The notes under the pieces were generated by a model, which was not told the DNA's origin, ran no database searches, and saw only the letters and a program-made list of their open reading frames with translations. A stretch of 10,528 nucleotides of DNA, from NCBI GenBank assembly GCA_020425885.1, contig JAGQRA010000631.1, positions 1-10,528 of the forward strand, written 5' to 3'. The stretch is from Planctomycetota bacterium (GTDB lineage Bacteria > Planctomycetota > UBA1135 > UBA2386). The first letter of the stretch is position 1. Every line of letters starts with the position of its first letter. A program made the position numbers and the translations under genes. Of the stretch, positions 1 to 10,528 are shown one piece after another.

Positions 1-237
1 CACGGCACCGCGCCGAAGTATGCCGACCAGGACAAGGTCAACCCGGGCTCGGTGATCCTCAGCGCCGAGATGATGTTCCGCTACCTCGGCTGGAACGAAG
101 CCGCCGATCTGATCATCAAGGGCGTCAACGGCGCCATCGGCAGAAAGCAGGTCACCTACGACTTCGCCCGCCTGATGGACGGTGTCGACGCCATCAAGTG
201 CTCGCAGTTCGGCGACGCCGTCATCGCCGCGATGTGA
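1..237 (+). CDS. icd: NADP-dependent isocitrate dehydrogenase, C-terminal fragment (5' end outside window)
   Basis: The reading frame is open from base 1 and ends at TGA 235-237, giving the last 78 residues of a longer protein. The fragment begins [20 protein letters not shown], which I recognise as the C-terminal part of bacterial homodimeric NADP isocitrate dehydrogenase (TCA cycle, cytoplasm, isocitrate to 2-oxoglutarate plus CO2). HGTAPKYA lies in the coenzyme-binding region of that family, and the end (VTYDFARLM ... [13 protein letters not shown]) also has the usual Icd form. The C-terminus looks complete and undamaged although the last 20 bases are duplicated at 5360-5379. Only the fragment is visible, so catalytic residues upstream cannot be checked. 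A long monomeric-type Icd is unlikely given this C-terminal pattern. Confidence 0.93.
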
Positions 238-238
238 C
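219..238 (+). repeat. Left copy of 20-bp direct repeat at icd 3' end (att-like)
   Basis: The bases CGTCATCGCCGCGATGTGAC encode the last codons and stop of icd and recur exactly at 5360-5379. The two copies bracket the two-gene island. The 3' end of icd is a known integration site in E. coli (phage 21, element e14), where the element restores the end of the gene; that parallel is inference here because no integrase is seen. Confidence 0.8.
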
Positions 239-243
239 GTCCG

Positions 244-351
244 GCGAGCAAAGCAATCGCGACCAAGCTGGCGAACGCGCGCTGCAGGAACATCAGCGCG
301 TGCTCGTCGAGCAGGAATCCGGGGCGAACCACAGCACGGCGCCGCCGGCGA
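244..351 (-). pseudogene. Decayed fragment of a paralogous copy of the 4-TM membrane-protein gene
   Basis: These 108 bases align with 5438-5546, inside the minus-strand 4-TM gene, with about seven substitutions and one missing base, or roughly 93% identity by eye. Read on the minus strand it gives GFLLDEHALMFLQRAFASLV, against GFLLDEHELMFLLRVFASLV in the intact gene. The missing base near 324 shifts the frame. The final codons and stop of the intact gene have no counterpart here: only 14 bases lie between the repeated 16 bases of icd and stop region and the remnant, against about 58 in the intact locus. There is no start codon or upstream two thirds. It is a remnant of a flank duplication, not a gene. 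Confidence 0.8.
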
Positions 352-528
352 GCAGACATCGGCAGTAGCCGGGTAGAACCGAGCCTACGCACTTCAGGGG
401 CGGTTGACGCTTCGGCGCGATCCAGCGTAAGAGGGAGGCGCCTCGGAGATGCGCGTCGGTGGAGTATCGCGCGTGCGGATATGATGTCGATCCATAGTGG
501 GTCAGCCCAGACGGCGCGAGTCTGACGC
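352..528. other. Non-coding stretch upstream of the first island gene
   Basis: I see no convincing gene in these 177 bases. Candidate promoter elements are a TTGACG at 404-409 without a good -10 partner, and a TATGAT at 480-485 (listed separately). Short alternative stems are possible around 501-525 (CAGAC/GTCTG) but are too short to call. Confidence 0.5.
480..485 (+). promoter_or_regulatory. Possible -10 box (TATGAT) for the secreted propeller gene
   Basis: TATGAT matches the housekeeping -10 consensus at five of six positions and lies about 87 bases before the SD-preceded ATG at 572. No good TTGACA-like -35 is found 16-18 bases upstream. Planctomycete promoters are poorly defined, so this is a weak call. 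Confidence 0.25.
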
Positions 529-2979
529 GTGTGCCGAACGTCTACACCGGTAGACAAGGAGACCGCCAAGCATGAAGTACGCTCACCAGCTCACCAGCTC
601 ACCGCGAACGAGCCTGGGTCCAGGTTCTTTCGTAGTGCCCTGAGTGTGGCGACCGCGTTGGGGATCGCGGTTCCAGGGTTGGCCCAGCAGACAGCCAGCC
701 CCGACGACGCCCGGCGTGTCTACGCCGATCACGACTACACGACGACCCCGAACGCGACGACGTTTCATGGCGAGTCGTTCGCCGACATCAAGGTAACTGG
801 CGACCCTCTGTCCTCGTTCGGTCGGAGCTACGTCGTCGGCACGATCGAAGTCGAGACCACCGACCCTTCCTCGTCACCGACGTTCTCGGGGTTTGCCGTT
901 GGCCTTCCAACTACGGGTTGGCCGCCATTCTCGAACAGCCTGCATCAGGTCGGACTCCTGCAATGCAGGGATTCGAGCCAGGCTATTCTCTGGCAGCGGT
1001 TCTTCTACGGCTGGAACGCAACCAATGCTCCACGCTGGACCAATCTGCGCGCCGTCGCCGTGTGGCCGGACGAGGTCGAAGCCGAGGCTCGCGTCGTCAT
1101 CTGCGGCGAGACGTTCGACGAACAGGTGCCACTCGCCCAGAACCTCCCTTCGGCGACGGTGGGTGACCCCACGGGCTTCCTCGCCGTGTTCGACGGTTCC
1201 GGCCTCCTGCTCTGGACCCAGCGTTTCTACGGCCAGAACTTCAATCGCCGCTGTGCCATCACCGATGTCGCCATCCGGGTCGAGCACGACGGCAACGACA
1301 CCTACGATGTCGTCACCTACTGCGGCGTCTCGACCCACGGCAATCCCGGTAGCGGAACGCCGCTCACTCCGGTGAACTGGTTCCCTGCCCCCACGGCACC
1401 TGGCACCGGTTATGTCGGCGCTGCCGGCAACACCAATGCCGGCGCCGGTGCCTGGGACGGCATCGTCGGCCGCGTTCGCTTCAACCGCGCAGGCTCGACG
1501 ACCAGTACGGACTTCCACTCGATCGTCGGCGGCAGTGTGGGCGACGGCCTGTTCGGGCTGGCGCTGCTCGATGAGGATCGCTTCGTCGCCGTCGGCAACA
1601 CGACCTTCGACCCTGCGCATTTCCCGGGCGTCTACGAGGCCTATCCGTTCACGCAGCCCGGCTTGGACAACACTCCGCAGCTCACATGGGACTGGAACAA
1701 CCAGTTCGGTGCGCACCCGTACTACTGCGTCGGCACGGTGATGCTGTTCGACGCGGCCCCAACGCGCCTCAATGGGGATCTCGTTCTCGAGGAGTCGGTG
1801 GCCCTCGGACACATGGGCCCTGAGCTGACGATCGCACGCGACGTCTGGGCTGCGCCCGCGGGCCCGGCAACCGGGGATGTGGACAGCAGCATCTTCGTCG
1901 TCGGTTCGACCACCGACAATTCCGAGAACAACGGCGACCTCCTGGACTCCATCGACGGCGGGCTGCAGCGGGGCGCTCAGCCGTACTACGGTGGCGGCCT
2001 TGTCGATGGCTTCCTCGTGCACGCTATCACCGACACGCAGCTTGTCCTCGACTTCACTCTCGGCACGTTCTACGGCGGCCTCCTCGAAGACGGTCTGACC
2101 GGTGTCTCCGGCTGGCCCGGCATGCCGTTCGATTGTGCCGTGACCGGCTTCACCGAGATCGAGACCGGCAACATCGACCTCGTGGCCGCGAGTTACCACG
2201 AGATCACCGGGCTACTCGCGCGCCAGGACATCGTCGGCAGCAATCTCCCGGACCTGCCGTCGAGCGCCGCGCCTCGCAACGCCATGCTTGCAACGAGCAA
2301 CTTCGCCTACCTTCCGGCCTTGGGTGGACCGAACGGTGGCGGGATCGGCGTCGATGCGCTCATGCGCGCCACCATCATCGGCGCGACCCCGACCTGGGCC
2401 ACATCGACTTTCCCGGTCTGGGGTGGCGGCGATGTCCCGATGGACGGCTTGGATGCCGTGCGCGTCGTCTACGACTTGCTGCCGGAGGGCGTCTGGCGCA
2501 CCGACGGCACCGGCACGCGAGCCGCAGCGTTCGGCTCGGTGCCGCAGCCATCGGGTTACTACGGCGGCACGACACCGTCCGCATGCCTGGACACGTTCGG
2601 CCGGTTGCCGGGCGAGCCAGCGCCTGAACTGCAGCGAATCTGGATCGACTACCAGGGACCACATCCCACCGTCGGCGTCAACAATGCCAGCATCCGACTG
2701 TCGGGGGTGTCGCTCGACCCCAATCAGTACACCTTGGGAGTGATCCAATACGGATTCCCGGCGACCCCTTGGCCCCCGGGTGCGACGGTCGAGGTATGGG
2801 CCTATCAGAACCCGACGGTGCTCTGCCAGGGCTACGGCTGCAGCCTGATCTGGCCGCTGTCGCCCCTTCCGGGGGGGCCATCGGAGTTCACCCTGCAGGG
2901 AGTGTTCCTTCTGCAGTCGCCCCTGAACTGCGACCCGAACGCGACGATCGCGAGCCCCGGGCTCATCATCAGCTACTGA
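529..2979 (+). CDS. Large secreted SBBP-like beta-propeller protein; start codon uncertain (frame issue at 5' end)
   Basis: The open frame runs from GTG 529 to TGA 2977-2979 (816 residues). Residues 31-52 form a signal peptide (SRFFRSALSVATALGIAVPGLA, cleaved before QQ), so the protein is exported. The mature part has degenerate units of the type 'DGfl..f...G....t..yGG...D.l..v......f.v.G.T', for example near residues 215-265, 310-360, 400-465 and 490-540. This resembles SBBP-type beta-propeller blades in planctomycete secreted proteins. No catalytic motif is evident. The last ~110 residues (from PELQRIWIDYQGP) look like a separate beta-sandwich-like domain. GTG 529 has no Shine-Dalgarno. The good RBS and ATG at 572 are in another frame, ending at a stop near 642-644, because of the 8-bp repeat at 581-603. 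Without one repeat unit the product would start MKYAHQLTANEPGSRFFRSA. It may therefore be phase-variable or recently frameshifted. Function is unknown; adhesion or surface binding is a guess. Confidence 0.75.
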   Translation: MCRTSTPVDKETAKHEVRSPAHQLTANEPGSRFFRSALSVATALGIAVPGLAQQTASPDDARRVYADHDYTTTPNATTFHGESFADIKVTGDPLSSFGRSYVVGTIEVETTDPSSSPTFSGFAVGLPTTGWPPFSNSLHQVGLLQCRDSSQAILWQRFFYGWNATNAPRWTNLRAVAVWPDEVEAEARVVICGETFDEQVPLAQNLPSATVGDPTGFLAVFDGSGLLLWTQRFYGQNFNRRCAITDVAIRVEHDGNDTYDVVTYCGVSTHGNPGSGTPLTPVNWFPAPTAPGTGYVGAAGNTNAGAGAWDGIVGRVRFNRAGSTTSTDFHSIVGGSVGDGLFGLALLDEDRFVAVGNTTFDPAHFPGVYEAYPFTQPGLDNTPQLTWDWNNQFGAHPYYCVGTVMLFDAAPTRLNGDLVLEESVALGHMGPELTIARDVWAAPAGPATGDVDSSIFVVGSTTDNSENNGDLLDSIDGGLQRGAQPYYGGGLVDGFLVHAITDTQLVLDFTLGTFYGGLLEDGLTGVSGWPGMPFDCAVTGFTEIETGNIDLVAASYHEITGLLARQDIVGSNLPDLPSSAAPRNAMLATSNFAYLPALGGPNGGGIGVDALMRATIIGATPTWATSTFPVWGGGDVPMDGLDAVRVVYDLLPEGVWRTDGTGTRAAAFGSVPQPSGYYGGTTPSACLDTFGRLPGEPAPELQRIWIDYQGPHPTVGVNNASIRLSGVSLDPNQYTLGVIQYGFPATPWPPGATVEVWAYQNPTVLCQGYGCSLIWPLSPLPGGPSEFTLQGVFLLQSPLNCDPNATIASPGLIISY
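540..561 (+). promoter_or_regulatory. Inverted repeat abutting a strong Shine-Dalgarno
   Basis: A perfect 6-bp inverted repeat (GTCTAC, 4-base loop, GTAGAC; 540-555) is followed at once by AAGGAG (556-561). Ten bases later comes ATG 572-574. This is the only good ribosome-binding site near the start of the propeller gene and argues that translation begins at 572, not at the GTG at 529. The small hairpin could act as an operator or a stand-by element at the RBS; that role is inferred. Confidence 0.5.
581..603 (+). repeat. 8-bp tandem repeat (GCTCACCA, 2.9 copies) between start codon and signal peptide
   Basis: GCTCACCA occurs at 581-588 and 589-596, followed by GCTCACC at 597-603. The repeat lies 9 bases after the SD-preceded ATG (572). 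An 8-bp unit changes the frame with each gain or loss. With 2.9 copies the ATG reads into a stop after about 23 codons; with 1.9 copies it reads straight into the signal peptide and the full protein. This is the layout of a slipped-strand contingency locus, although the copy number is low. Confidence 0.7.
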
Positions 2980-2986
2980 TTCACGG

Positions 2987-3014
2987 CGCCCCCCTGGCCG
3001 TGGTCAGGGGGGCG
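2987..3014 (+). terminator. GC-rich hairpin between the two secreted-protein genes
   Basis: A perfect 10-bp inverted repeat (CGCCCCCCTG at 2987-2996, CAGGGGGGCG at 3005-3014) with an 8-base loop starts 7 bases after the stop codon of the propeller gene. No T-tract follows, so it is either a terminator of the U-less kind, a 3' RNA-stabilising hairpin, or a partial attenuator between the two genes. Confidence 0.5.
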
Positions 3015-3065
3015 TGCCCGACGTCGAATCCACACCGACATCCACGACCGACCGGCAGGCCAACC

Positions 3066-5303
3066 ATGACTACTTCGCGTTTCGGCCTTCTTCCTTCCCC
3101 GCCTCTCACCTCGGCGTTCGTGCGGCTCGGAGTCGCTGTTGCTCTCCTGTCCTGCGCCCTCTCCCAGAGTCCTTCGAGCCTCGTCGGCTACTCGGGCTAC
3201 GGCTACGACACCGAGGCAGCCGAGGGCACGATTCTGCAAGTCGCGGCAGCCATTAATGTCACCGGGGTACGCCGCGCCGATGGCCGCGTGTTCTGCTACG
3301 GCTCCGCCTCGATCTCGGATCCACCGTTGCCGCCGCCGGGCCTCCACTACATCGACATCGACGTCGGCGGGACCATCGCTGGCGGCATCCTCTCGGACGG
3401 GTCGCTCGTGCGCTGGGCATGGGAGGAGTGGGTCCAAAACCAACCGTTGCCACCCCTGCCGCCGGGCGTCGTCTACACCGATGTCGCGACTGGCGGCTGC
3501 TACATCGTGCTGCGCTCGGACGGCTGGATCACGATTGCCGGCAATGTTGCGTTCAACCAGGACGTCATCCCCGCTCTGCCTCCCGGGACGAGCTACACAA
3601 AGGTCGAGGGTGGCGGCGGCCACGTCCTTGCCCTGCGCTCCGACGGCGAACTGATCGCATGGGGCTGGAACGACGTCGGTCAATGCAGCGTGCCGGCGTT
3701 GCCCCCGGGAGTCCGCTACGTCGAAGCACTGGCCGGCTACAAGCACAGCGTGGCGCTGCGCTCGGACGGGGAGGTGGTCGCCTTCGGTGACAACAGCTCG
3801 GGTCAGTGCAACGTGCCGGCGCTGCCGTTGGGTCTCGACTACACCGCGGTCGCAGCCGGCCGCTACCACACTCTCGCGCTACGCTCAGACGGTCAGCTCG
3901 TCGGCTGGGGCTCGAACCCAATCATCAACGGGCTCGGGCTGACTACGGCCCCAGCGCTGCCGCCTGGAGCTTCGATCGTCCGGATCGCGGCGGGCTGGGG
4001 TCATTCGGTGGCGCTGTTGTCGAATGGCAGGGTGCTGGGCTGGGGGCTGGGGTACGCCGCTCACTTGCCAATGCTGCCGCGAGGCGAGCGCTGGGTGCAG
4101 TTCGACCTCGGCGACTACCACACTTTGGGCGTCCGATCCGATGGCGAAGTCGTCGGCTTCGGGGCGAACAGCTCCGGTCAGTGCGATGCGCCGCCGCTGC
4201 CGCCCGGCGTTCGCTACGACCAGGTCTCAGCCGGCTATCAGCACAGCGCCGCGCTGCGCTCCGACGGACAGGTCGTCTGCTTCGGTGACAACACCTTCGG
4301 CCGCTGCAACGTTCCAGCGCCACTGCCTGGTCTGACATACACACAGGTAGCGGTCTCGGATTCGCATTCGGTGGCGCTCTTGTCCGATGGCACAGCCGTT
4401 GGCTGGGGCGAGAACTCGTACGGCCAGTGCAACCCTCCGGCGCCGCCCCCCGGTACCCGCTATGTGGCGGTCGACGTTGCCCACTTCCGCACGATGCTGC
4501 TGCGCTCGGATGGCGAGATCACACTGGCTGGCCTGTACCTTTCGCCTTCGAACGCGCCCGAGGGGCAGATCCCGCTGTTGCCACCAGGGACGGAATACGT
4601 CGAGATCGCGGCCGGCCAAGGCGCGGCTGCAGCCCGCCGCACCGACGGCGAGGTCCTAATGTGGCCGACATCGTCGATCCGCCGACCGCTGCCGGCATTG
4701 CCCTGGGGTGTGTACTACGTCGAAATCGACGGCAGCATGGATCTCCACATTGCCAGGCGCTCCGACGGCCTCATCGAGTACGCGAGCCGGGGTGTCATCG
4801 ACCCGCGGTATCAGCCACCAGAAGCCCCACCGCTCGCCCCCGGTACGAGCTACGTCGAGATCGCATCCAACCTCAACCAGTTCGGCGGCGCCCGCGTCGG
4901 CCCGACGTCGACCTACGTCTCGTTCGCCCACGGCTGCGCCGGCAGTCGCCAGGCTGCACGCCTGGTACCGATGGACACCCCGCGTATCGGCAAGGCCCAC
5001 GTCGTCCACGTCCTCGACCTGCCGCACGACATCGCCATCATGGCTTTCGGCTGGAACCGCACCCAACCGTTCGCACTCGACCCGTACGGCATGCCCGGCT
5101 GCGCCTCGCACGTCACCATCGACGCCGCCTTCGTGATCATGGGCCAGCACGGCTGGGCGGAGTGCAGCCTGCCGATCCCCGACAACCCGATCCTCGTCGG
5201 CCTGCACTTCTTCCACCAGGCCTTCGTTCCCGACGCCGCGGCCGGCAATCCCATGCGTGCGGTCGTCTCCGACGCCGCGGAAGGCATCATCGGACACTGG
5301 TGA
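3066..5303 (+). CDS. Secreted RCC1-repeat beta-propeller protein with planctomycete-type C-terminal domain
   Basis: ATG 3066 is chosen because it is followed by a signal peptide (about residues 1-33, hydrophobic core VRLGVAVALLSCALS, cut before or near QSPSS). The frame is open further upstream to a TTG at 2769, but that part overlaps the previous gene and has no signal. The product is 745 residues. Residues ~55-592 hold 13 units of about 41 residues plus a partial 14th. Each has the RCC1 pattern 'yv.vaaG..HsvaLrsDGev.gfGdns.GQcnvPalPpG', with the PPG-type turn at nearly every unit boundary. Residues ~615-745 form a C-terminal domain (GCAGSRQA ... PRIGKAHVV ... GMPGCASHVTID ... IPDNPILVGLHFFHQAF ... 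IIGHW) seen at the end of many planctomycete secreted proteins. No enzyme motif is visible; bacterial RCC1/BLIP-II-like propellers are usually binding modules, so a surface or extracellular ligand-binding role is inferred. No strong Shine-Dalgarno precedes the ATG. Confidence 0.88.
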   Translation: MTTSRFGLLPSPPLTSAFVRLGVAVALLSCALSQSPSSLVGYSGYGYDTEAAEGTILQVAAAINVTGVRRADGRVFCYGSASISDPPLPPPGLHYIDIDVGGTIAGGILSDGSLVRWAWEEWVQNQPLPPLPPGVVYTDVATGGCYIVLRSDGWITIAGNVAFNQDVIPALPPGTSYTKVEGGGGHVLALRSDGELIAWGWNDVGQCSVPALPPGVRYVEALAGYKHSVALRSDGEVVAFGDNSSGQCNVPALPLGLDYTAVAAGRYHTLALRSDGQLVGWGSNPIINGLGLTTAPALPPGASIVRIAAGWGHSVALLSNGRVLGWGLGYAAHLPMLPRGERWVQFDLGDYHTLGVRSDGEVVGFGANSSGQCDAPPLPPGVRYDQVSAGYQHSAALRSDGQVVCFGDNTFGRCNVPAPLPGLTYTQVAVSDSHSVALLSDGTAVGWGENSYGQCNPPAPPPGTRYVAVDVAHFRTMLLRSDGEITLAGLYLSPSNAPEGQIPLLPPGTEYVEIAAGQGAAAARRTDGEVLMWPTSSIRRPLPALPWGVYYVEIDGSMDLHIARRSDGLIEYASRGVIDPRYQPPEAPPLAPGTSYVEIASNLNQFGGARVGPTSTYVSFAHGCAGSRQAARLVPMDTPRIGKAHVVHVLDLPHDIAIMAFGWNRTQPFALDPYGMPGCASHVTIDAAFVIMGQHGWAECSLPIPDNPILVGLHFFHQAFVPDAAAGNPMRAVVSDAAEGIIGHW
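3228..4841 (+). repeat. Array of 13 RCC1-type coding repeats
   Basis: Thirteen consecutive units of about 40-45 codons, each with an '[A/L]RSDGxxxxxG' core and ending in a proline-rich 'LPPG'-like turn, are followed by a half unit (TSYVEIAS). The best-conserved units are 4, 5, 8, 9 and 10 (GQC.VP segments). Units 1-3 and 11-13 are degenerate. DNA copies have diverged, so the array is old and not recently amplified. Confidence 0.85.
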
Positions 5304-5324
5304 GTCGCCGGCCCTGCGGCTGAC
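5304..5324 (+). terminator. Short hairpin directly after the RCC1 gene
   Basis: GTCGCCG (5304-5310), a 6-base loop and CGGCTGAC (5317-5324) can form a 7-bp stem with one bulged base immediately after the TGA. There is no T-tract. It may end island transcription before the convergent membrane-protein gene. Confidence 0.35.
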
Positions 5325-5359
5325 GCAACGACGCGGCAGGTCCTCGACCATGCCAAGCG

Positions 5360-5379
5360 CGTCATCGCCGCGATGTGAC
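5360..5379 (+). repeat. Right copy of 20-bp icd-end repeat (att-like remnant)
   Basis: This is an exact copy of 219-238: the last codons and TGA of icd, without the rest of the gene. It stands 3 bases before the stop codon of the minus-strand 4-TM gene. In the ancestral arrangement icd and the 4-TM gene would meet tail to tail here with a 4-bp gap between stop codons. It marks the right edge of the island. Confidence 0.8.
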
Positions 5380-5382
5380 CGG

Positions 5383-5832
5383 CTAAGGCACGTTCCCCGG
5401 CTCCGGCTTCGTCAGCGCATAGAGCGTGCGCCAGACCGCGAGCACCGCAATCGCGACCAGGCTGGCGAACACACGCAGCAGGAACATCAGCTCGTGCTCG
5501 TCGAGCAGGAATCCGGGGACGAACCACAGCACGGCGCCGCCGGCGAACATGAGCCAGCGGCCGCGGCCGAACAGCCAATCGGCGCGCGACAACAACGGGA
5601 TGCCGAGGCACAGCCAGGCGATGCCCATGCCGACGAGCTCGTGCGGGCCGCCGACGCCCGGTGCGGCATAGGGTTCGTCGGGCGCGCTGACGAACAGGAA
5701 CACGGCCCACGCGACCGCCGCCGCGCCGCCGAGCCAGGCGATCCGGCGCAACGTCCACAGCGCGACTCGGACGACGCGACCGAGCGTCTCGATCTCGGGC
5801 TCGCGAGGAGCGGGCAACGGCGTCGTCGTCAC
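5383..5832 (-). CDS. Small four-helix integral membrane protein of unknown function
   Basis: The GTG start at 5832-5830 gives 149 residues, ending at TAG 5385-5383. Reading further upstream would overlap the SGNH gene, so the GTG is preferred, although no Shine-Dalgarno is evident. Hydrophobic segments are at about residues 32-49 (AWLGGAAAVAWAVFLFV), 66-82 (VGMGIAWLCLGIPLL), 93-110 (WLMFAGGAVLWFVPGFLL) and 115-140 (LMFLLRVFASLVAIAVLAVW). They are separated by short charged or Gly/Pro loops (SAPDEPYAAPGVGGPHE, RADWLFGRGR, DEHE). I do not recognise the family. It follows the SGNH hydrolase by 49 bases on the same strand, so the two are probably cotranscribed. A decayed copy of its 3' part lies at 244-351. 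Confidence 0.75.
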   Translation of the reverse strand: MTTTPLPAPREPEIETLGRVVRVALWTLRRIAWLGGAAAVAWAVFLFVSAPDEPYAAPGVGGPHELVGMGIAWLCLGIPLLSRADWLFGRGRWLMFAGGAVLWFVPGFLLDEHELMFLLRVFASLVAIAVLAVWRTLYALTKPEPGNVP

Positions 5833-5881: not shown

Positions 5882-7036
5882 CTACAGCCGCGCCTCGATC
5901 TCCGGCAGCATCCACGCCGCGACCTTGCGGCAGCCGGCGACGCTGAAGTGCCAGTCCAGCGGCAGGAACAGCGGCTTGCGATCGGGCTCGGCGAGGAAGC
6001 GCTCGGCCAGATCGACGACTTCGATGCCCTGCGCGGCGAACAGCCGCCGCAGACGGTCGTGGCCACGGCCGCGCTCGTGCAATGCGGGGTCGAGCTTGTA
6101 CGCCTTCAGCAGTTCGCCATAGTCCTTGAGCGCGACCTCGTGCCCGGGCAGCAACACCACCAGCGTCGGCAGGCCTTCGGCGGCCTTCGCGAACCGACCG
6201 AAGTAATCGGTCAGCACCGCCTCGACGTTGGCGATGTACGGCGCTTCGGCGTCACGGCTCGGATCGCGATCGAGGAACAGGGCTTCATCGGGACGGAACT
6301 TGATGCCCGGCGCATGGGTCTGCAGCGCCTGCATCACGATGTCGTCGAGGTTGCGTTTGGCGAACAGACGCTCACCGTAGTTCCACACCCGCGAGCTCAT
6401 CAACATGCGGAACCGCCATGACTCCTTGAGGTGCGTCGTGCCGGAGATCATGAGCCAGCCGTCGTAGACGCTGAGCGGATCCATGATCGAGTCGAGCACG
6501 TCGTTGCCGACGTACATCACCGCGACGACGACATCCGGATCGAAGGTCGGGCGATGGCGATCGAGGGTGTAGCTCCATTCACGCGGCCCGGTGCCGAACA
6601 TGCCGGCGTTGCCGACCGTCACGTCGTAGCCCTTCTTGCGCAACGCCTGCTGCAGGCAGGCCGGCACGGTCTGATCGTCCTTGACCCCCTGACCCCAGAT
6701 GTAGGAATCGCCGAGCACGAGCACCCGCTTCTCGCCGGGCGCCCGCGCGCCGACCTCGGGCCCGCGCAGCCCGAGCGCGTTCATGTGCACGGGAACGGGA
6801 CGGTTCTCGACGATCTGGGCGCCGGTCCAGCCCGGCGTCGTCTCGATGCGACCCTGGCCGTCGAGACGGTAGAAGCCGCGCACGTCCTCGAGCGGCGCGT
6901 GCAGGGGATCCCAGATCCGCAACGCGATCTCGAGCAGGAGCAGGGCGACGACGAGCCCGACGAACAACGCGGTGAGTCCGAACAGCAGACGGCGGCCGCG
7001 GCGCCGCGAAGGTCGAGGGCTGGGAGGCTGAGCCAT
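5882..7036 (-). CDS. Membrane-anchored SGNH/GDSL-type hydrolase
   Basis: ATG 7036-7034 gives 384 residues. It is preceded by AGGA five bases upstream and is the first Met before the membrane anchor; the frame extends to 7135 but that part is translated remnant repeat. Residues ~16-40 (RLLFGLTALFVGLVVALLLLEIAL after an Arg-rich start) form one N-terminal helix, so the catalytic domain faces the periplasm. SGNH blocks are clear: GDSY at 109-112 with Ser111 as nucleophile; GNAGMFG around Gly145; VGND at 176-179 with Asn178; and DWH at 361-363 with Asp361 and His363. The family cleaves ester bonds (lipids, acyl or acetyl groups on polysaccharides); the substrate here is unknown. It is the usual length for planctomycete anchored SGNH proteins. 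It lies just downstream of a remnant of the sigma-fusion gene's end (stop 11 bases before this ATG), so the two were probably one operon before the ATPase segment entered. Confidence 0.9.
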   Translation of the reverse strand: MAQPPSPRPSRRRGRRLLFGLTALFVGLVVALLLLEIALRIWDPLHAPLEDVRGFYRLDGQGRIETTPGWTGAQIVENRPVPVHMNALGLRGPEVGARAPGEKRVLVLGDSYIWGQGVKDDQTVPACLQQALRKKGYDVTVGNAGMFGTGPREWSYTLDRHRPTFDPDVVVAVMYVGNDVLDSIMDPLSVYDGWLMISGTTHLKESWRFRMLMSSRVWNYGERLFAKRNLDDIVMQALQTHAPGIKFRPDEALFLDRDPSRDAEAPYIANVEAVLTDYFGRFAKAAEGLPTLVVLLPGHEVALKDYGELLKAYKLDPALHERGRGHDRLRRLFAAQGIEVVDLAERFLAEPDRKPLFLPLDWHFSVAGCRKVAAWMLPEIEARL

Positions 7037-7051
7037 CGGGATCCTGGTTAG

Positions 7052-7084
7052 CGCCGCGGCGACGCGAAATCGAGGACGGTCTCG
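7052..7084 (-). repeat. 33-bp copy of the 3' end of the sigma-fusion gene (left copy)
   Basis: These 33 bases are identical to 8563-8595. On the minus strand they read ETVLDFASPRR followed by TAA at 7050-7048, the same C-terminus as the intact gene, whose stop is TGA. Similarity stops abruptly beyond the 33 bases on both sides. The copy sits 11 bp upstream of the hydrolase start, as expected for the ancestral end of the upstream operon gene. Confidence 0.85.
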
Positions 7085-7189
7085 GTTCGTGGTCGCGGCA
7101 GCAGGGAAGGGGAGGAGACGAGGTCGGCGGCCCACTCCAGGCGCCCGTGGGGCACCCTTTTGCGCGCCTGGCTCGCGCTCCGGAGCGTC
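7085..7189. other. Non-coding leader upstream of the ATPase gene
   Basis: I see no supported gene here. It is GC-rich with a purine-rich run (about 7104-7120) and no clear homology to the rest of the window. It lies inside the segment bounded by the 33-bp repeats. Confidence 0.4.
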
Positions 7190-7248
7190 GTTCTCCCGGA
7201 TGGAGAACTGTAATCTGCCAACCCCAAAGGTTTCAATCTGCCAACCCC
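7190..7248 (+). promoter_or_regulatory. Operator-like region: inverted repeat, -10-like box and two direct repeats before the ATPase
   Basis: A perfect 7-bp inverted repeat (GTTCTCC, CGGAT loop, GGAGAAC; 7190-7208) is followed by TGTAAT (7209-7214), a five-of-six match to a -10 box. Two exact 14-bp direct repeats AATCTGCCAACCCC lie at 7212-7225 and 7235-7248, 23 bp apart (about two helical turns). The second ends 6 bases before the ATPase ATG, in the place of a Shine-Dalgarno, which is absent. The layout suggests a regulator, possibly the ATPase itself through its winged-helix part, binding over promoter and start. The binding partner is inference. Confidence 0.5.
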
Positions 7249-7254
7249 GTAGTC

Positions 7255-8511
7255 ATGCCCGCATCCCAGCATCCCGAACTCCACCCCCGGTTCGCCAGCG
7301 CCCCCCTGCGGCGAGCCTTGTCCGACAGCCCGGTGGTGCTGGTACATGGGCCCCGCCAGAGTGGCAAGACGACACTCGTGCGCACCGTGGCCGAACCACT
7401 CGGCTACCGCTACCTCACTCTCGACGACGATGTCGTCCGCAACGCGGCGGAGAGAGACAGCATGGGCTTCGTGGCGGAGTTGAAGGGCCCGACGATCCTG
7501 GACGAGGTGCAGCGAACCCCCTCGATCTTCGGTGCCATGAAGGCATCGGTCGATCGCGACCGGACCCCGGGGCGGTTCCTGTTGACGGGTTCGACGAACC
7601 TGTTGCTGCTGCCGAAGCTCTCGGACTCACTCGCCGGCCGCCTGGCGATCCTGCGGCTGTTTCCGCTCACCCAGTCAGAGCTCACGGGAACGAACACCGG
7701 ATTCGTGGAACGCCTGCTCTCGAACGAACTGCCTGCGGGAAGGAGAGACCGCCTCGGACCAGAACTGGCCCGACGAATCGTCGCCGGTGGGTTCCCAGCA
7801 GCACTGGCACGCAACGGGGCACGACGCCGCGCGACCTGGTATCGCGACTACGTCGAGACCATCGTGCAACGCGACGTCCGAGATCTCGCGAGAATCTCCT
7901 CGCTGGATGCACTGCCGAGGTTGTTGGAGCTCGCGGCCGGGCAGACGGCACGCATGCTGAACGTCAGCGATCTGGCCGCGCCCTTCCAGGTGAGCCGACC
8001 GACGATCCGGGACTACATCACACTCCTGGCGCGCGTGTTCCTGCTCGAGGAGCTGCCCCCTTGGCATTCCAATCGACTGAATCGGCTCGTCAAGAGTCCG
8101 AAGCTCCATATCGTCGACACTGGCATCGCCTGTTCGCTACTCGGCTACGACGCAGATGGCCTGCACGAGGATCGTGAGCGACTGGGGCAGTTGTTCGAGA
8201 CGTTCGTCTACCAGGAGCTGCGAAGGCAAGCGAGCTGGCTCGACGACGACCTCCGGTTTCATCACTTTCGCGATCGCGATGGGACCGAGGTCGACCTCGT
8301 CATCGAGCGCGGCGCGCGGACCCTCGTCGGGGTCGAAGCCAAGGCCGGCGCCACGGTCACCTCCGCGGACTTCCGCGGCATGCGGATGCTCGCCAAGGCA
8401 GCCGGCAAGAGATTCGTCGCCGGCGTGATCGTCTACGACGGCGAGCACTGCGTGGGATTCGGCGACAGGTTGCGCGCCGTACCGGTATCGATGCTCTGGC
8501 AGCCGGCATAG
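7255..8511 (+). CDS. AAA ATPase with DUF4143-type C-terminal domain
   Basis: ATG 7255 gives 418 residues, close to the usual length of this family; the open frame extends to 7147 but through regulatory repeats. Walker A is GPRQSGKT (32-39) and Walker B is TILDEVQR (Asp83-Glu84). LLTGSTN (109-114) is the sensor region and SLAGRL follows. A winged-helix-like part comes next (near LNVSDLAAPFQVSRPTIRDYITLLARVFLLEEL). The C-terminal part has the conserved LGQLFETFVYQELRR and the nuclease-like signature GTEVDLVIERG ... VGVEAKAG, which corresponds to the E-V-D ... ExK pattern of DUF4143 proteins. These are widespread, patchily distributed, probably mobile ATPases of unknown cellular role. The gene is alone between two 33-bp direct repeats, antisense to the resident operon, consistent with insertion. 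No Shine-Dalgarno; the direct repeats at 7212-7248 occupy that place. Confidence 0.92.
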   Translation: MPASQHPELHPRFASAPLRRALSDSPVVLVHGPRQSGKTTLVRTVAEPLGYRYLTLDDDVVRNAAERDSMGFVAELKGPTILDEVQRTPSIFGAMKASVDRDRTPGRFLLTGSTNLLLLPKLSDSLAGRLAILRLFPLTQSELTGTNTGFVERLLSNELPAGRRDRLGPELARRIVAGGFPAALARNGARRRATWYRDYVETIVQRDVRDLARISSLDALPRLLELAAGQTARMLNVSDLAAPFQVSRPTIRDYITLLARVFLLEELPPWHSNRLNRLVKSPKLHIVDTGIACSLLGYDADGLHEDRERLGQLFETFVYQELRRQASWLDDDLRFHHFRDRDGTEVDLVIERGARTLVGVEAKAGATVTSADFRGMRMLAKAAGKRFVAGVIVYDGEHCVGFGDRLRAVPVSMLWQPA

Positions 8512-8525
8512 GACCGTGGGGTCTC

Positions 8526-8568
8526 GCGGCGGTGCCGGGAGGCCGAAGCTGCCCCCGGTCACCGCCGC
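8526..8568. terminator. Long bidirectional hairpin between the convergent ATPase and sigma-fusion genes
   Basis: GCGGCGGTGCCGGG (8526-8539) pairs with CCCGGTCACCGCCGC (8554-8568): 14 base pairs with one bulged T and a 14-base loop. It begins 15 bases after the ATPase stop, and its right arm contains the stop codon (8559-8561) and last two to three codons of the minus-strand gene. No T-tract is seen on either side. Its position between convergent genes suits a bidirectional terminator. The right arm also overlaps the 33-bp repeat by 6 bases. Confidence 0.55.
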
Positions 8569-10528
8569 GGCGACGCGAAATCGAGGACGGTCTCGCCTTG
8601 CTGATCGATCACGAACTCGCGCGCCTGCAGCGCATCGCGCGCGCCCTGGAGTGCGAGCCAGGTGCCCGCCGGCAATGACAGCAGATCGCCTTCGGGAACG
8701 AACCGGGCGCGCACGTCGACATCGGCGCGCCGCTGCCATAGCTCGAGGGCATGGCCGGGCCGATGTGCGAGCCGCAGCCGACCCGGCGCCGGCAGCTCGA
8801 CCGCGCCGAGATCGAGCGGGTTGATGCCATCGACCCAGTGCTGCCCGAGGTCGAGCCAGCCGCTGCCGGGGCAACCGGCGACGACGCGATAGAAGCCGGC
8901 GCGCAGGCCGTCGATCTCGAGGATGCCATCGGCCGACCGGGGCATGGCAGCACCACGGCCGCTGTCGATCTGCCAGGCGAACGCGCCGGCGCGTTGCCCG
9001 TCGAGGCCGGCCGGCAGCCTCGGCTGCAACAGCAATGACCCGGCGGGCAGGCCATCGTCACGGAGGTCGAAGTCGACGTTGGTCGCACCCGGCAAGGCGT
9101 TCGGTTCGATCGCCATCGGCAGGCGGTGGCCGGCGCCCGAATGCAGCAACAGCGTGCCGGACGAGTTCGGCAGGTTCGCCAACAGGTAGCTGCCATCCGC
9201 CTGGACATCGGCGGCATCGACCGCCCGGCCATCGTGCGCCACGAACTCGACGCGCCATCCCGGCAACGCCTTGCCGTCATCGCCGAGAACGGTGCCGCGC
9301 AGCACGTGACCGCGATCGAGATCGACCTGACAAGCCGACTCGCGATCGGCGAACACCGTCACCGTCGTGCGACCGAGCCCGGCGCGGCGACCGCCGGCGC
9401 GCACCTCGACGGTTCCACAGCGAACGTCGGTCAGCGTGAAGCGGCCCGCGTCATCGGTGTCGGTCCGGCCCTCAGGGCAGCCGTCCCCGCAGCCGTAGAC
9501 GACGGGCTGCCCGGCGGCGGGCCTGCCTTCGCCGTCGTAGACGATGCCATGGATCGCGCCCTTGCCCGGCTGCTCCTCACCGCCCGTCGCGACCTCGGTC
9601 TCCTCGCTGATGTAGACGTCGTCATCGTCCTCCGCCGGTGGCTCGGCAGACTCGGCCTCGGCCGAACGGTCCGGCTCGCTGCCGATGAGGACATCGAACA
9701 GGCGGCTCTCGGGATGCAGTCCGTCGCGGGCCTGGACGGGCACATCGAAGAGGTCGGGGAAGGTCCCGCTCTGATGACAGAGGCCACAGCGCATGCCGCG
9801 GCGGATGCCATCCAGTTGGCATCTGCCGCCGATGCCGCCGGTGTCGCCGAGCAGCACACATTCCTGCACCGGGCCGGCCTCGACCTCGAGCCGCTGCAAC
9901 GACTGCGAACGGCCGTCGACCGTGACCCCGATCGCGATCGTCATCACCGCGACCTTGCCGCGCCAATCGATCTCGATCACGCCATCGCGCGACGTCACCT
10001 GTCGCCAGCCATTGAGGGCCCCGTCGCCCGGCGCGAAGGCGAGCTGCGCCATGTGAACAGGCAGCCCGTCGAGGTCGACGACGCGGCAGCGCAGGCGGAA
10101 GGCGAACGGATGGCCGAGATCGACCTGCGGGGTCGCGTCTTGCTCGATCGCGACCGGTTCCCGTTCGGCCGCAGCCGGCTGCTGACCGTCACCGTGAGCC
10201 AGCGCAGCCCGAGCGGGGTCGGCCGTCGTGGCGGCGGCCTGCATGCCCGGCGCGGGCGACTGACTCCAGGAATACACGAGCCATGCGGCCAGCATCGTGG
10301 CGGCCGCGGTGGCCAGCAACTTCGTCGTCGGTGCCATGATCAGGGTCGAAAGGAACGAGATGGAGATGGTGCCGGTACCGAATCCGGTCGCGGCGAGGAC
10401 CGCGCCGCGCCACCTGCCGCTGCGATCGCGGCGATCGAACTCGGCGCGCAGCATCGCCAGGCCGCGCTGCAGCCGACTCTTCACCGTGGCCAGCGGAATG
10501 CCGAGCCGAGCGGCGATCTGCTTCGGCG
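8559..10528 (-). CDS. Sigma-70 region 4 HTH fused to a membrane segment and carboxypeptidase-regulatory-like domains (5' end outside window)
   Basis: The frame is open from the window edge to TGA 8561-8559, so at least 655 residues are visible and the start is missing. The first visible residues read PKQIAARLGIPLATVKSRLQ followed by RGLAMLR, the region-4 helix-turn-helix of ECF-type sigma factors that binds the -35 element. Within 60 residues comes a hydrophobic helix (TKLLATAAATMLAAWLVYSW, about 10322-10269), with a weaker one before it (WRGAVLAATGFGTGTISISF). The remainder is predicted extracytoplasmic: an acidic linker (about 9670-9595), then Ig-like carboxypeptidase-regulatory units (GAIHGIVYDGEGRPAAGQPV ... 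GRFTL near 9555-9420, and LRGTVLGDDGKALPGWRVEF near 9300). A CGLCH motif is at about 9795-9781. Planctomycetes are known for sigma factors with long C-terminal extensions; signalling from outside to the HTH is inference. The N-terminal sigma region 2 cannot be checked. Confidence 0.85.
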   Translation of the reverse strand, partial: PKQIAARLGIPLATVKSRLQRGLAMLRAEFDRRDRSGRWRGAVLAATGFGTGTISISFLSTLIMAPTTKLLATAAATMLAAWLVYSWSQSPAPGMQAAATTADPARAALAHGDGQQPAAAEREPVAIEQDATPQVDLGHPFAFRLRCRVVDLDGLPVHMAQLAFAPGDGALNGWRQVTSRDGVIEIDWRGKVAVMTIAIGVTVDGRSQSLQRLEVEAGPVQECVLLGDTGGIGGRCQLDGIRRGMRCGLCHQSGTFPDLFDVPVQARDGLHPESRLFDVLIGSEPDRSAEAESAEPPAEDDDDVYISEETEVATGGEEQPGKGAIHGIVYDGEGRPAAGQPVVYGCGDGCPEGRTDTDDAGRFTLTDVRCGTVEVRAGGRRAGLGRTTVTVFADRESACQVDLDRGHVLRGTVLGDDGKALPGWRVEFVAHDGRAVDAADVQADGSYLLANLPNSSGTLLLHSGAGHRLPMAIEPNALPGATNVDFDLRDDGLPAGSLLLQPRLPAGLDGQRAGAFAWQIDSGRGAAMPRSADGILEIDGLRAGFYRVVAGCPGSGWLDLGQHWVDGINPLDLGAVELPAPGRLRLAHRPGHALELWQRRADVDVRARFVPEGDLLSLPAGTWLALQGARDALQAREFVIDQQGETVLDFASPRR
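8563..8595 (-). repeat. 33-bp copy of the 3' end of the sigma-fusion gene (right copy, within the intact gene)
   Basis: It is identical to 7052-7084 and encodes the last residues ETVLDFASPRR of the intact gene. Together with the left copy it brackets a 1.5 kb segment carrying only the ATPase gene. Confidence 0.85.

Follow-up and report, generated by a model that had tools for sequence, protein, structure and literature searches.

How two genes for probably secreted proteins came to lie between the isocitrate dehydrogenase gene (icd) and a small membrane-protein gene, with a copy of the junction of these two genes on either side, is the question raised by the Planctomycetota contig JAGQRA010000631.1. 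This contig was analysed complete (10,528 bp, GC content 67.7%; hereafter the window), and it ends inside icd on one side and inside the reading frame of a CarboxypepD_reg gene on the other. Its genes follow in the order icd (3' end, forward strand), cargo A and cargo B (both forward), a four-transmembrane (4-TM) gene and an SGNH/GDSL hydrolase gene (both reverse), an AAA_14-DUF4143 gene (forward) and the CarboxypepD_reg gene (reverse). The analyses presented here indicate that the cargo genes probably arrived as a cassette of approximately 5.0 kb, inserted at the convergent icd/4-TM junction with a target duplication of approximately 210 bp, for which a staggered break is proposed.

Duplication of the icd/4-TM junction around a two-gene cassette

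Comparison of the window with itself revealed that the last 20 bp of icd, which include its stop codon (235-237), recur exactly on the far side of the cargo (219-238 and 5360-5379), where only three bases (5380-5382) separate the match from the 4-TM stop codon, as an earlier note on this DNA had described. The chance expectation for exact 20-mer pairs in the window, calculated from base composition, was approximately 0.0005. No third site was found within four mismatches on either strand of the whole window, and the repetition through codon bias that the note had considered was thus not seen there. A second match joins 244-351 to 5438-5546, with 92.7% identity over 109 columns (seven mismatches, one gap, E-value 8e-41), which is far beyond chance; the gap lies in the left copy and shifts the frame, in agreement with the frameshifted 4-TM remnant of about 93% identity proposed before. 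This match can be extended, more weakly, to positions 372 and 5570, and the 58 nt at 5380-5437 of the right copy correspond to 5 nt (239-243) in the left one. The duplicated junction proposed in the note was therefore confirmed, while its sizes (a block of about 130-190 bp around about 5.1 kb) were revised to copies of approximately 211 and 154 bp around approximately 5.0 kb. Rejoining the flanks across the insert left icd and the 4-TM gene with intact ends, 4 bp apart. Between the 150-bp ends of either of the two inserts of the window, inverted matches did not exceed 7 bp, and none of the window proteins matched a transposase family in Pfam or NCBIfam. An integrase, of which the note had seen none in the cargo, was likewise absent from the window proteins searched (seven in Pfam and NCBIfam, six in PHROGs), the far side of icd lying beyond the contig; in PHROGs only the RCC1-repeat protein was matched, one of the matches being a tail-protein family.

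The differences between the two copies were distributed over codon positions 1/2/3 as 2/3/2 in the window, 4/1/3 in a similar duplication of genome G143, and 70/60/82 when pooled over mechanically chosen open reading frames (ORFs), among which the repeat of L112, upstream of a likely signal peptide as judged by eye, may be non-coding. The corresponding counts between the window icd and two orthologues, L021 and L023, were 8/3/23 and 5/6/18 (together 13/9/41); these two served as the only yardstick, L010, L019, L020 and L022 being excluded because their counts came from opposite strands. The pooled copies differed from this yardstick (Fisher P = 0.0003), and a stricter set made up of the window, G143, L130, L133 and, by eye, L275 gave 7/5/7 of 19 differences (P = 0.011). 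As far as sequence can tell, the copies look as if they had been the same when formed and one of them had later decayed without selection, a pattern more in keeping with duplication of the local target than with the import of a homologous stretch.

A survey of 154 genomes of the same order yielded 24 icd matches in 23 genomes, and 20 of these regions (all except G089, G090, G094 and the second G131 match) were examined for the 4-TM and cargo genes. Of the 20, 17 reach at least 2 kb downstream of icd, and three (L282, L286 and L291) extend less than 1 kb past it. Neither cargo gene was found around icd in these 20 relatives, which differs from the situation, considered in the note, of relatives all carrying the cargo here. 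A profile search located the 4-TM gene near icd in three regions (G135, G136 and G137). In G137, which belongs to another species, the icd stop codon, 7 bp and the 4-TM stop codon follow each other in a convergent arrangement without cargo, and thus the empty site predicted by the note exists. Since the 4-TM profile included the G137 sequence, the E-value that it gave for G137 is too favourable; the match had first been obtained with the window protein as sole query (E-value 1.8e-9). According to a reading of their sequences, icd and the 4-TM gene are separated by a lipoprotein-like gene and further sequence in G136, and by a dehydrogenase-like and a lipoprotein-like gene in G135. The content of the icd/4-TM junction therefore varies between species, as these three genomes differ in it. 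The lipoprotein-like genes of G136 (L277) and G135 (L279) encode 592 and 615 amino acids and have similar ends.

Cargo A was detected in 13 of the 154 genomes (E-value 1e-20) and relatives of cargo B also in 13 (E-value 1e-100). Twenty cassette stretches were collected, 16 because both genes were listed side by side and four because one of them was found; 19 of them hold both genes, and in these 19 cargo A directly precedes cargo B on the same strand. At least two cassette copies on different contigs were present in G001, G005, G133, G135 and G137. Since the cassette recurs across the order, and in several copies on different contigs of one genome, the island of the window represents one copy of a dispersed two-gene cassette. 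The same form of insertion was observed in G145 (L275), where the cassette lies between direct repeats of 141 bp (1-141 and 6214-6354; 98.6% identical) derived from a gene that reads, in translation, as pseudouridine-synthase-like, the left copy being clipped by the contig end. Among the other stretches, weak flank matches were seen in L259 (20 bp) and L267 (36 bp at 86%).

Cargo A had no sequence match in PDB, and the SBBP propeller repeat was found in one of 33 homologues scanned. Its structure model (pLDDT 83.8, pTM 0.90) consists nearly entirely of strands, and its best PDB match was the beta-propeller enzyme CylK (E-value 9e-15, TM-score 0.43-0.50). On the basis of the model, cargo A is probably a beta-propeller-like protein, the match assigning no function. 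Cargo B, judged by eye from its N-terminus, is probably secreted. In G003 (L003:27-7146), an RCC1 gene, a cargo-A-like gene and another RCC1 gene follow one another at a distance of about 2.9 kb from the SGNH gene, on its other side as compared to the window.

A neighbouring insertion and the recurrence of flanking repeats

The AAA_14-DUF4143 gene occupies a second insert, 1.7 kb from the first. Its protein matched the PADLOC profile PDC-S01 with an E-value of 1.9e-165 (residues 8-416 of 418; profile positions 10-419 of 422), and a role in phage protection is predicted from this family. The insert is bounded by 42-bp copies of the CarboxypepD_reg 3' end, of which 33 bp in a row are exact (7052-7084 and 8563-8595), and this repeat is unrelated to that of the first insertion. 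With the flanks rejoined, 11 bp separate the CarboxypepD_reg stop codon from the SGNH start codon that follows it. In two relatives of other species (L001 and L002), the CarboxypepD_reg gene indeed lies directly upstream of the SGNH gene without a DUF4143 gene between them; it had no match in the stretch examined of the other three SGNH-bearing relatives. Two like events so close together suggest a little-studied route of gene acquisition in these bacteria, an insertion process in which no mobility enzyme is visible.

Flanking repeats were then surveyed by blastn of the upstream against the downstream 1.5 kb of each locus (E-value 1e-6). DUF4143 genes gave 88 matches in 47 of the 154 genomes, of which 87 were examined (a short G153 fragment was left out). 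Repeats were found at 14 of the 87 loci, and at 11 of the 73 for which 1 kb or more was available on either side, as compared to none of 600 mismatched flank pairs. Among the flank comparisons, two top hits (L073 and L082) proved to be overlap artefacts of short loci and were set aside. The repeat of L146 probably represents neighbouring paralogues, and without it the counts are 13/87 and 10/73; the P values given below include it. In a phylum-wide sample, in which a few genomes belong to the same order, five of 26 loci tested (out of 30) were positive, the null being 0/300. No flank repeats were detected at the 16 icd loci of relatives that could be tested (out of 22). For RCC1 genes, one of 20 tested (out of 30) was positive, namely L043 with a 27-bp match in the G003 array, and exact matches in the flanks of all 30 loci were no longer than in the null, apart from one null artefact of 199 bp. 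As the RCC1 flanks stopped short of the far side of cargo A, the whole cassette was re-tested, with the outcome described for L275, L259 and L267.

At the DUF4143 loci, the repeats ranged from 28 to approximately 300 bp, and the insert ends varied by hundreds of bp relative to the gene. Named targets include a DNA polymerase III alpha-family gene (G143), FeoB and an acyltransferase-like protein. In G143, a 422-bp copy of the polymerase 3' end (98.1% identical) lies past two ORFs, and a third copy of 66 bp (85%) lies beyond the DUF4143 gene; this stretch (G143:C15:35737-42404; L160, L161:1-2404), with the polymerase 3' end three times in a row, apparently records two successive insertions. Elsewhere in the same contig, a 40-bp repeat (55146-55185 and 61169-61208, perhaps also near 258570) occurs at ORFs starting LVPGTNYDR and may be a regulatory or recombination sequence. 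A repeat scan over 800 kb returned many repeats within gene families, and so gave no clean rate of such insertions. Ku was detected in 29 of the 154 genomes, and in two of the 12 with repeat-flanked DUF4143 genes. The flank comparisons suggest that the insertion mode recurs in Planctomycetota, among others around PDC-S01 genes. That the repeat pattern is special to DUF4143 genes was not supported, as PIN-domain genes were positive too. One of these PIN genes is flanked by a 140-bp repeat with a long palindrome (L199:208-347 and 1993-2132), by eye apparently a mobile repeat element.

The coordinates of all features are given in Table 1. The icd fragment matched NF005425 and TIGR00183 over residues 1-78 of 78, reaching or nearly reaching the profile end. 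A close SGNH relative was present in five of the 154 genomes (E-value 1e-60), and the closest homologues of the window protein are named as Planctomycetota proteins. Homologues of the 4-TM gene occur in four of these five relatives, and in none of the five does icd lie next to it. In one of them, G001, a 1076-aa ORF with ELWxTDGTxxGT-like repeats lies on the opposite strand between the SGNH and 4-TM genes (L001:2189-5419); no flank repeat stood out around it in a self-comparison dominated by the internal repeats. The N-terminus of the CarboxypepD_reg protein resembles sigma-70 region 4, slightly under the Pfam cut-off, as if an extracytoplasmic function (ECF) sigma factor had been fused to another domain. 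The GC content at third codon positions was 0.82 in the cargo genes and 0.81 in the DUF4143 gene, and 0.85-0.94 in the native genes of the window.

Table 1. Features of the window, with positions, strand and basis of assignment.
Feature	Position	Strand	Basis
icd 3' part, NADP isocitrate dehydrogenase (E. coli type), end intact	1..237	+	PF00180 7e-18
Left target copy: last 20 bp of icd and decayed 4-TM 3' end (~154 bp)	219..372		self-comparison
Inserted segment, ~5.0 kb	about 373..5359		bounded by both copies; no cargo between icd and 4-TM in G137
Cargo A, probably secreted beta-propeller-like protein, start codon uncertain	571..2979	+	no Pfam match of its own; 51 homologues including itself
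Cargo B, probably secreted RCC1-repeat protein	3066..5303	+	RCC1_2 1.5e-71; WD40_RLD 5.6e-68
Right target copy: icd end with stop, 4-bp spacer, 4-TM 3' end (~211 bp)	5360..5570		self-comparison
4-TM gene, small membrane protein, intact	5383..5832	-	convergent with icd once the flanks are rejoined; homologues near icd in relatives
SGNH/GDSL hydrolase, native neighbour	5882..7036	-	PF13472 2.5e-11; 120 homologues including itself
Second duplication, SGNH-side copy: CarboxypepD_reg 3' end including stop codon	7043..7084		self-comparison
Second insert	about 7085..8553		bounded by 42-bp copies
AAA_14-DUF4143 ATPase gene (PADLOC PDC-S01, candidate phage defence)	7255..8511	+	PF13635 1.4e-46; PF13173 6e-25
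Second duplication, native copy: CarboxypepD_reg 3' end	8554..8595		self-comparison
CarboxypepD_reg gene with N-terminal sigma-70 region-4-like stretch, native	8559..10526	-	domain match; frame leaves contig

Possible modes of entry

We infer that the molecular step was a staggered double break, filled in around captured DNA. The break at the target would have left long overhangs, which would have been filled in and joined to the captured cassette, so that the length of the stagger would set the length of the repeat. The insertion point would be the 4-bp junction between the convergent genes, and the approximately 210 bp that begin with the final 20 bp of icd and reach into the 4-TM 3' end would have come to lie once on either side of the cassette. 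As the duplicated stretch contains the ends of both genes, no sequence was lost from either, and the redundant copy beside icd would since have decayed by seven substitutions, a frameshift and the loss of approximately 53 bp. The same product could arise at any target and with any cargo, and selection would keep those events whose duplication spans gene ends and leaves both neighbours intact. As Ku was undetected in ten of the 12 repeat-bearing genomes, classical end joining is not the general joining step, unless incomplete genomes miss Ku; a joining route other than Ku would otherwise have to serve. Besides the duplication itself, this reading draws on the empty site of the relative, the dispersed cassette, the lack of a detected integrase, the second event nearby and the same form in other genomes.

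Several observations weigh against insertion through a staggered break, or limit how far it can be generalized. The empty site was seen in a different species, G137, with a 4-TM protein that shares just 34% identity with that of the window over 138 residues, the comparison being one between species rather than sister strains; the other genes at the G135 and G136 junctions imply that the empty state of G137 could be secondary. The window offers only seven differences for the codon test, and third positions were favoured in L092 (9/9/21), L201 (0/0/3) and L275 (0/0/2, by eye). Fourteen cassette stretches, 13 of which hold both genes, have 300 bp or more on either side, and of these only L275 had a clear repeat. 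Random intervals of 1250 bp were positive in 24 of 800 cases, 20 of these among the 400 drawn from a single contig of G143. This contig had been selected on account of its DUF4143 genes and holds many repeat families as well as the G143 insertions themselves; the 11/73 of the DUF4143 loci exceeded the random intervals as a whole (P = 5e-5) and that contig alone (P = 0.004). Flank repeats were about as frequent around PIN-domain genes (three of 27 tested, out of 30 loci) as around DUF4143 genes. The missing Ku also counts here, some of the ten genomes being perhaps incomplete. The PIN control and the weak cassette flank count temper the general claim.

The earlier note had suggested either entry of a circle by a single crossover or att-type integration at icd. 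In the former, of Campbell type, a circle carrying the cassette and icd/4-TM homology would recombine once with the chromosome and leave the homology on both sides; it gives the same end product, and a gene, the cargo and a partial gene copy follow in the expected order. However, the donor circle must already have carried the cassette beside this very junction, which merely moves the question back, and each site, with its repeat of a different sequence and length, would need its own matching circle. The differences between the copies are moreover not dominated by third positions in the window or in G143, as they are between icd orthologues (the seven of the window alone being weak evidence), and entry of this kind is consequently considered unlikely. 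For the latter, an element that has since lost its integrase would have integrated site-specifically at the 3' end of icd, which is a known attachment site in E. coli for phage 21 and e14. The position is the same and the 20-bp repeat is exact; on the other hand, no integrase turned up among those window proteins that were searched, the duplication does not stop at icd but reaches the 4-TM gene, the second insertion lies in a 42-bp target of unrelated sequence without a shared core, as like insertions elsewhere use other targets, and none of the tested icd loci of relatives had flank repeats. Such an origin is therefore very improbable.

A sequence of two steps, in which the junction segment was first duplicated in tandem and the cassette then inserted near the seam, could produce a similar end product, and tandem duplications are common in bacteria. 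Nevertheless, the insertion would have to hit the seam, which is hardly to be expected repeatedly at many sites with varied targets, and this route is judged quite improbable. An artefact of metagenomic assembly might be suspected because the window is a whole 10.5-kb contig; the copies, however, differ (92.7% identity, with an exact repeat of only 20 bp), and the same form occurs in other assemblies (G143, G145 and others), which makes this explanation extremely improbable. Within insertion by a staggered break, it is conceivable, albeit doubtful, that the PDC-S01 protein, which pairs an ATPase with a nuclease domain of PD-(D/E)XK type, itself makes the staggered cuts that admit its own gene, and bystander cargo such as the cassette in trans, with long target duplications. 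If so, PDC-S01 would be a new type of single-gene element that promotes its own spread, much as has been suggested for restriction-modification genes.

Relation to known insertion systems

To our knowledge, the entry of single genes without mobility enzymes into bacterial chromosomes is largely unexplained, and here two such events lie within 10.5 kb. Most repeat-bearing genomes lack detected Ku, and PDC-S01 is a very common candidate defence gene: its description presents it as a fusion of an ATPase domain with a PD-(D/E)XK member and places it fourth among prokaryotic defences by frequency (PMC12988326). Titles and abstract openings of papers on DUF4143, PDC-S01 and long target duplication contained no link to an insertion of this kind or to Planctomycetota.

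Other systems resemble the window in part. In Arabidopsis, 22 of 126 transposed genes (17.5%), as compared to six of 102 controls (5.9%), had flanking direct repeats longer than 15 bp, and many of these match the orthologous target region (PMC2869330); that case differs in being eukaryotic and in the mechanism discussed, recombination between flanking repeats together with circles. In Haloquadratum, insertions are coupled to deletions and indels are bounded by short repeats (PMC3119063), in both respects unlike the insertions of the window.

The closest counterpart is insertion with long target duplication, described in Helicobacter pylori by Nobusato, Uchiyama, Ohashi and Kobayashi in 2000 (as related in PMC1643837 and PMC3031569) and tied to restriction-modification genes (PMC1643837, PMC3031569, PMC3154945, PMC4978471). 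As in Helicobacter, acquired genes lie between long and variable direct duplications of the target and are recognized by comparison with a related genome: the cargo-free junction exists in relatives of other species, the target was duplicated over approximately 211 bp in one event and 42 bp in the other, and repeat length and sequence vary between sites without fixed element ends. No restriction-modification domain was found in the cargo proteins, and the neighbouring insert is PDC-S01; this association is usual for the class, not defining. Most of the genes inserted in Helicobacter belong to restriction-modification systems, unlike the secreted-type cassette and the candidate defence gene (AAA_14-DUF4143) found here. 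The Helicobacter pattern of 2000 thereby becomes countable, datable and testable across genomes. The insertions of the window are best filed as insertions with long target duplication, differing from those of Helicobacter in the types of cargo and in the Planctomycetota host.

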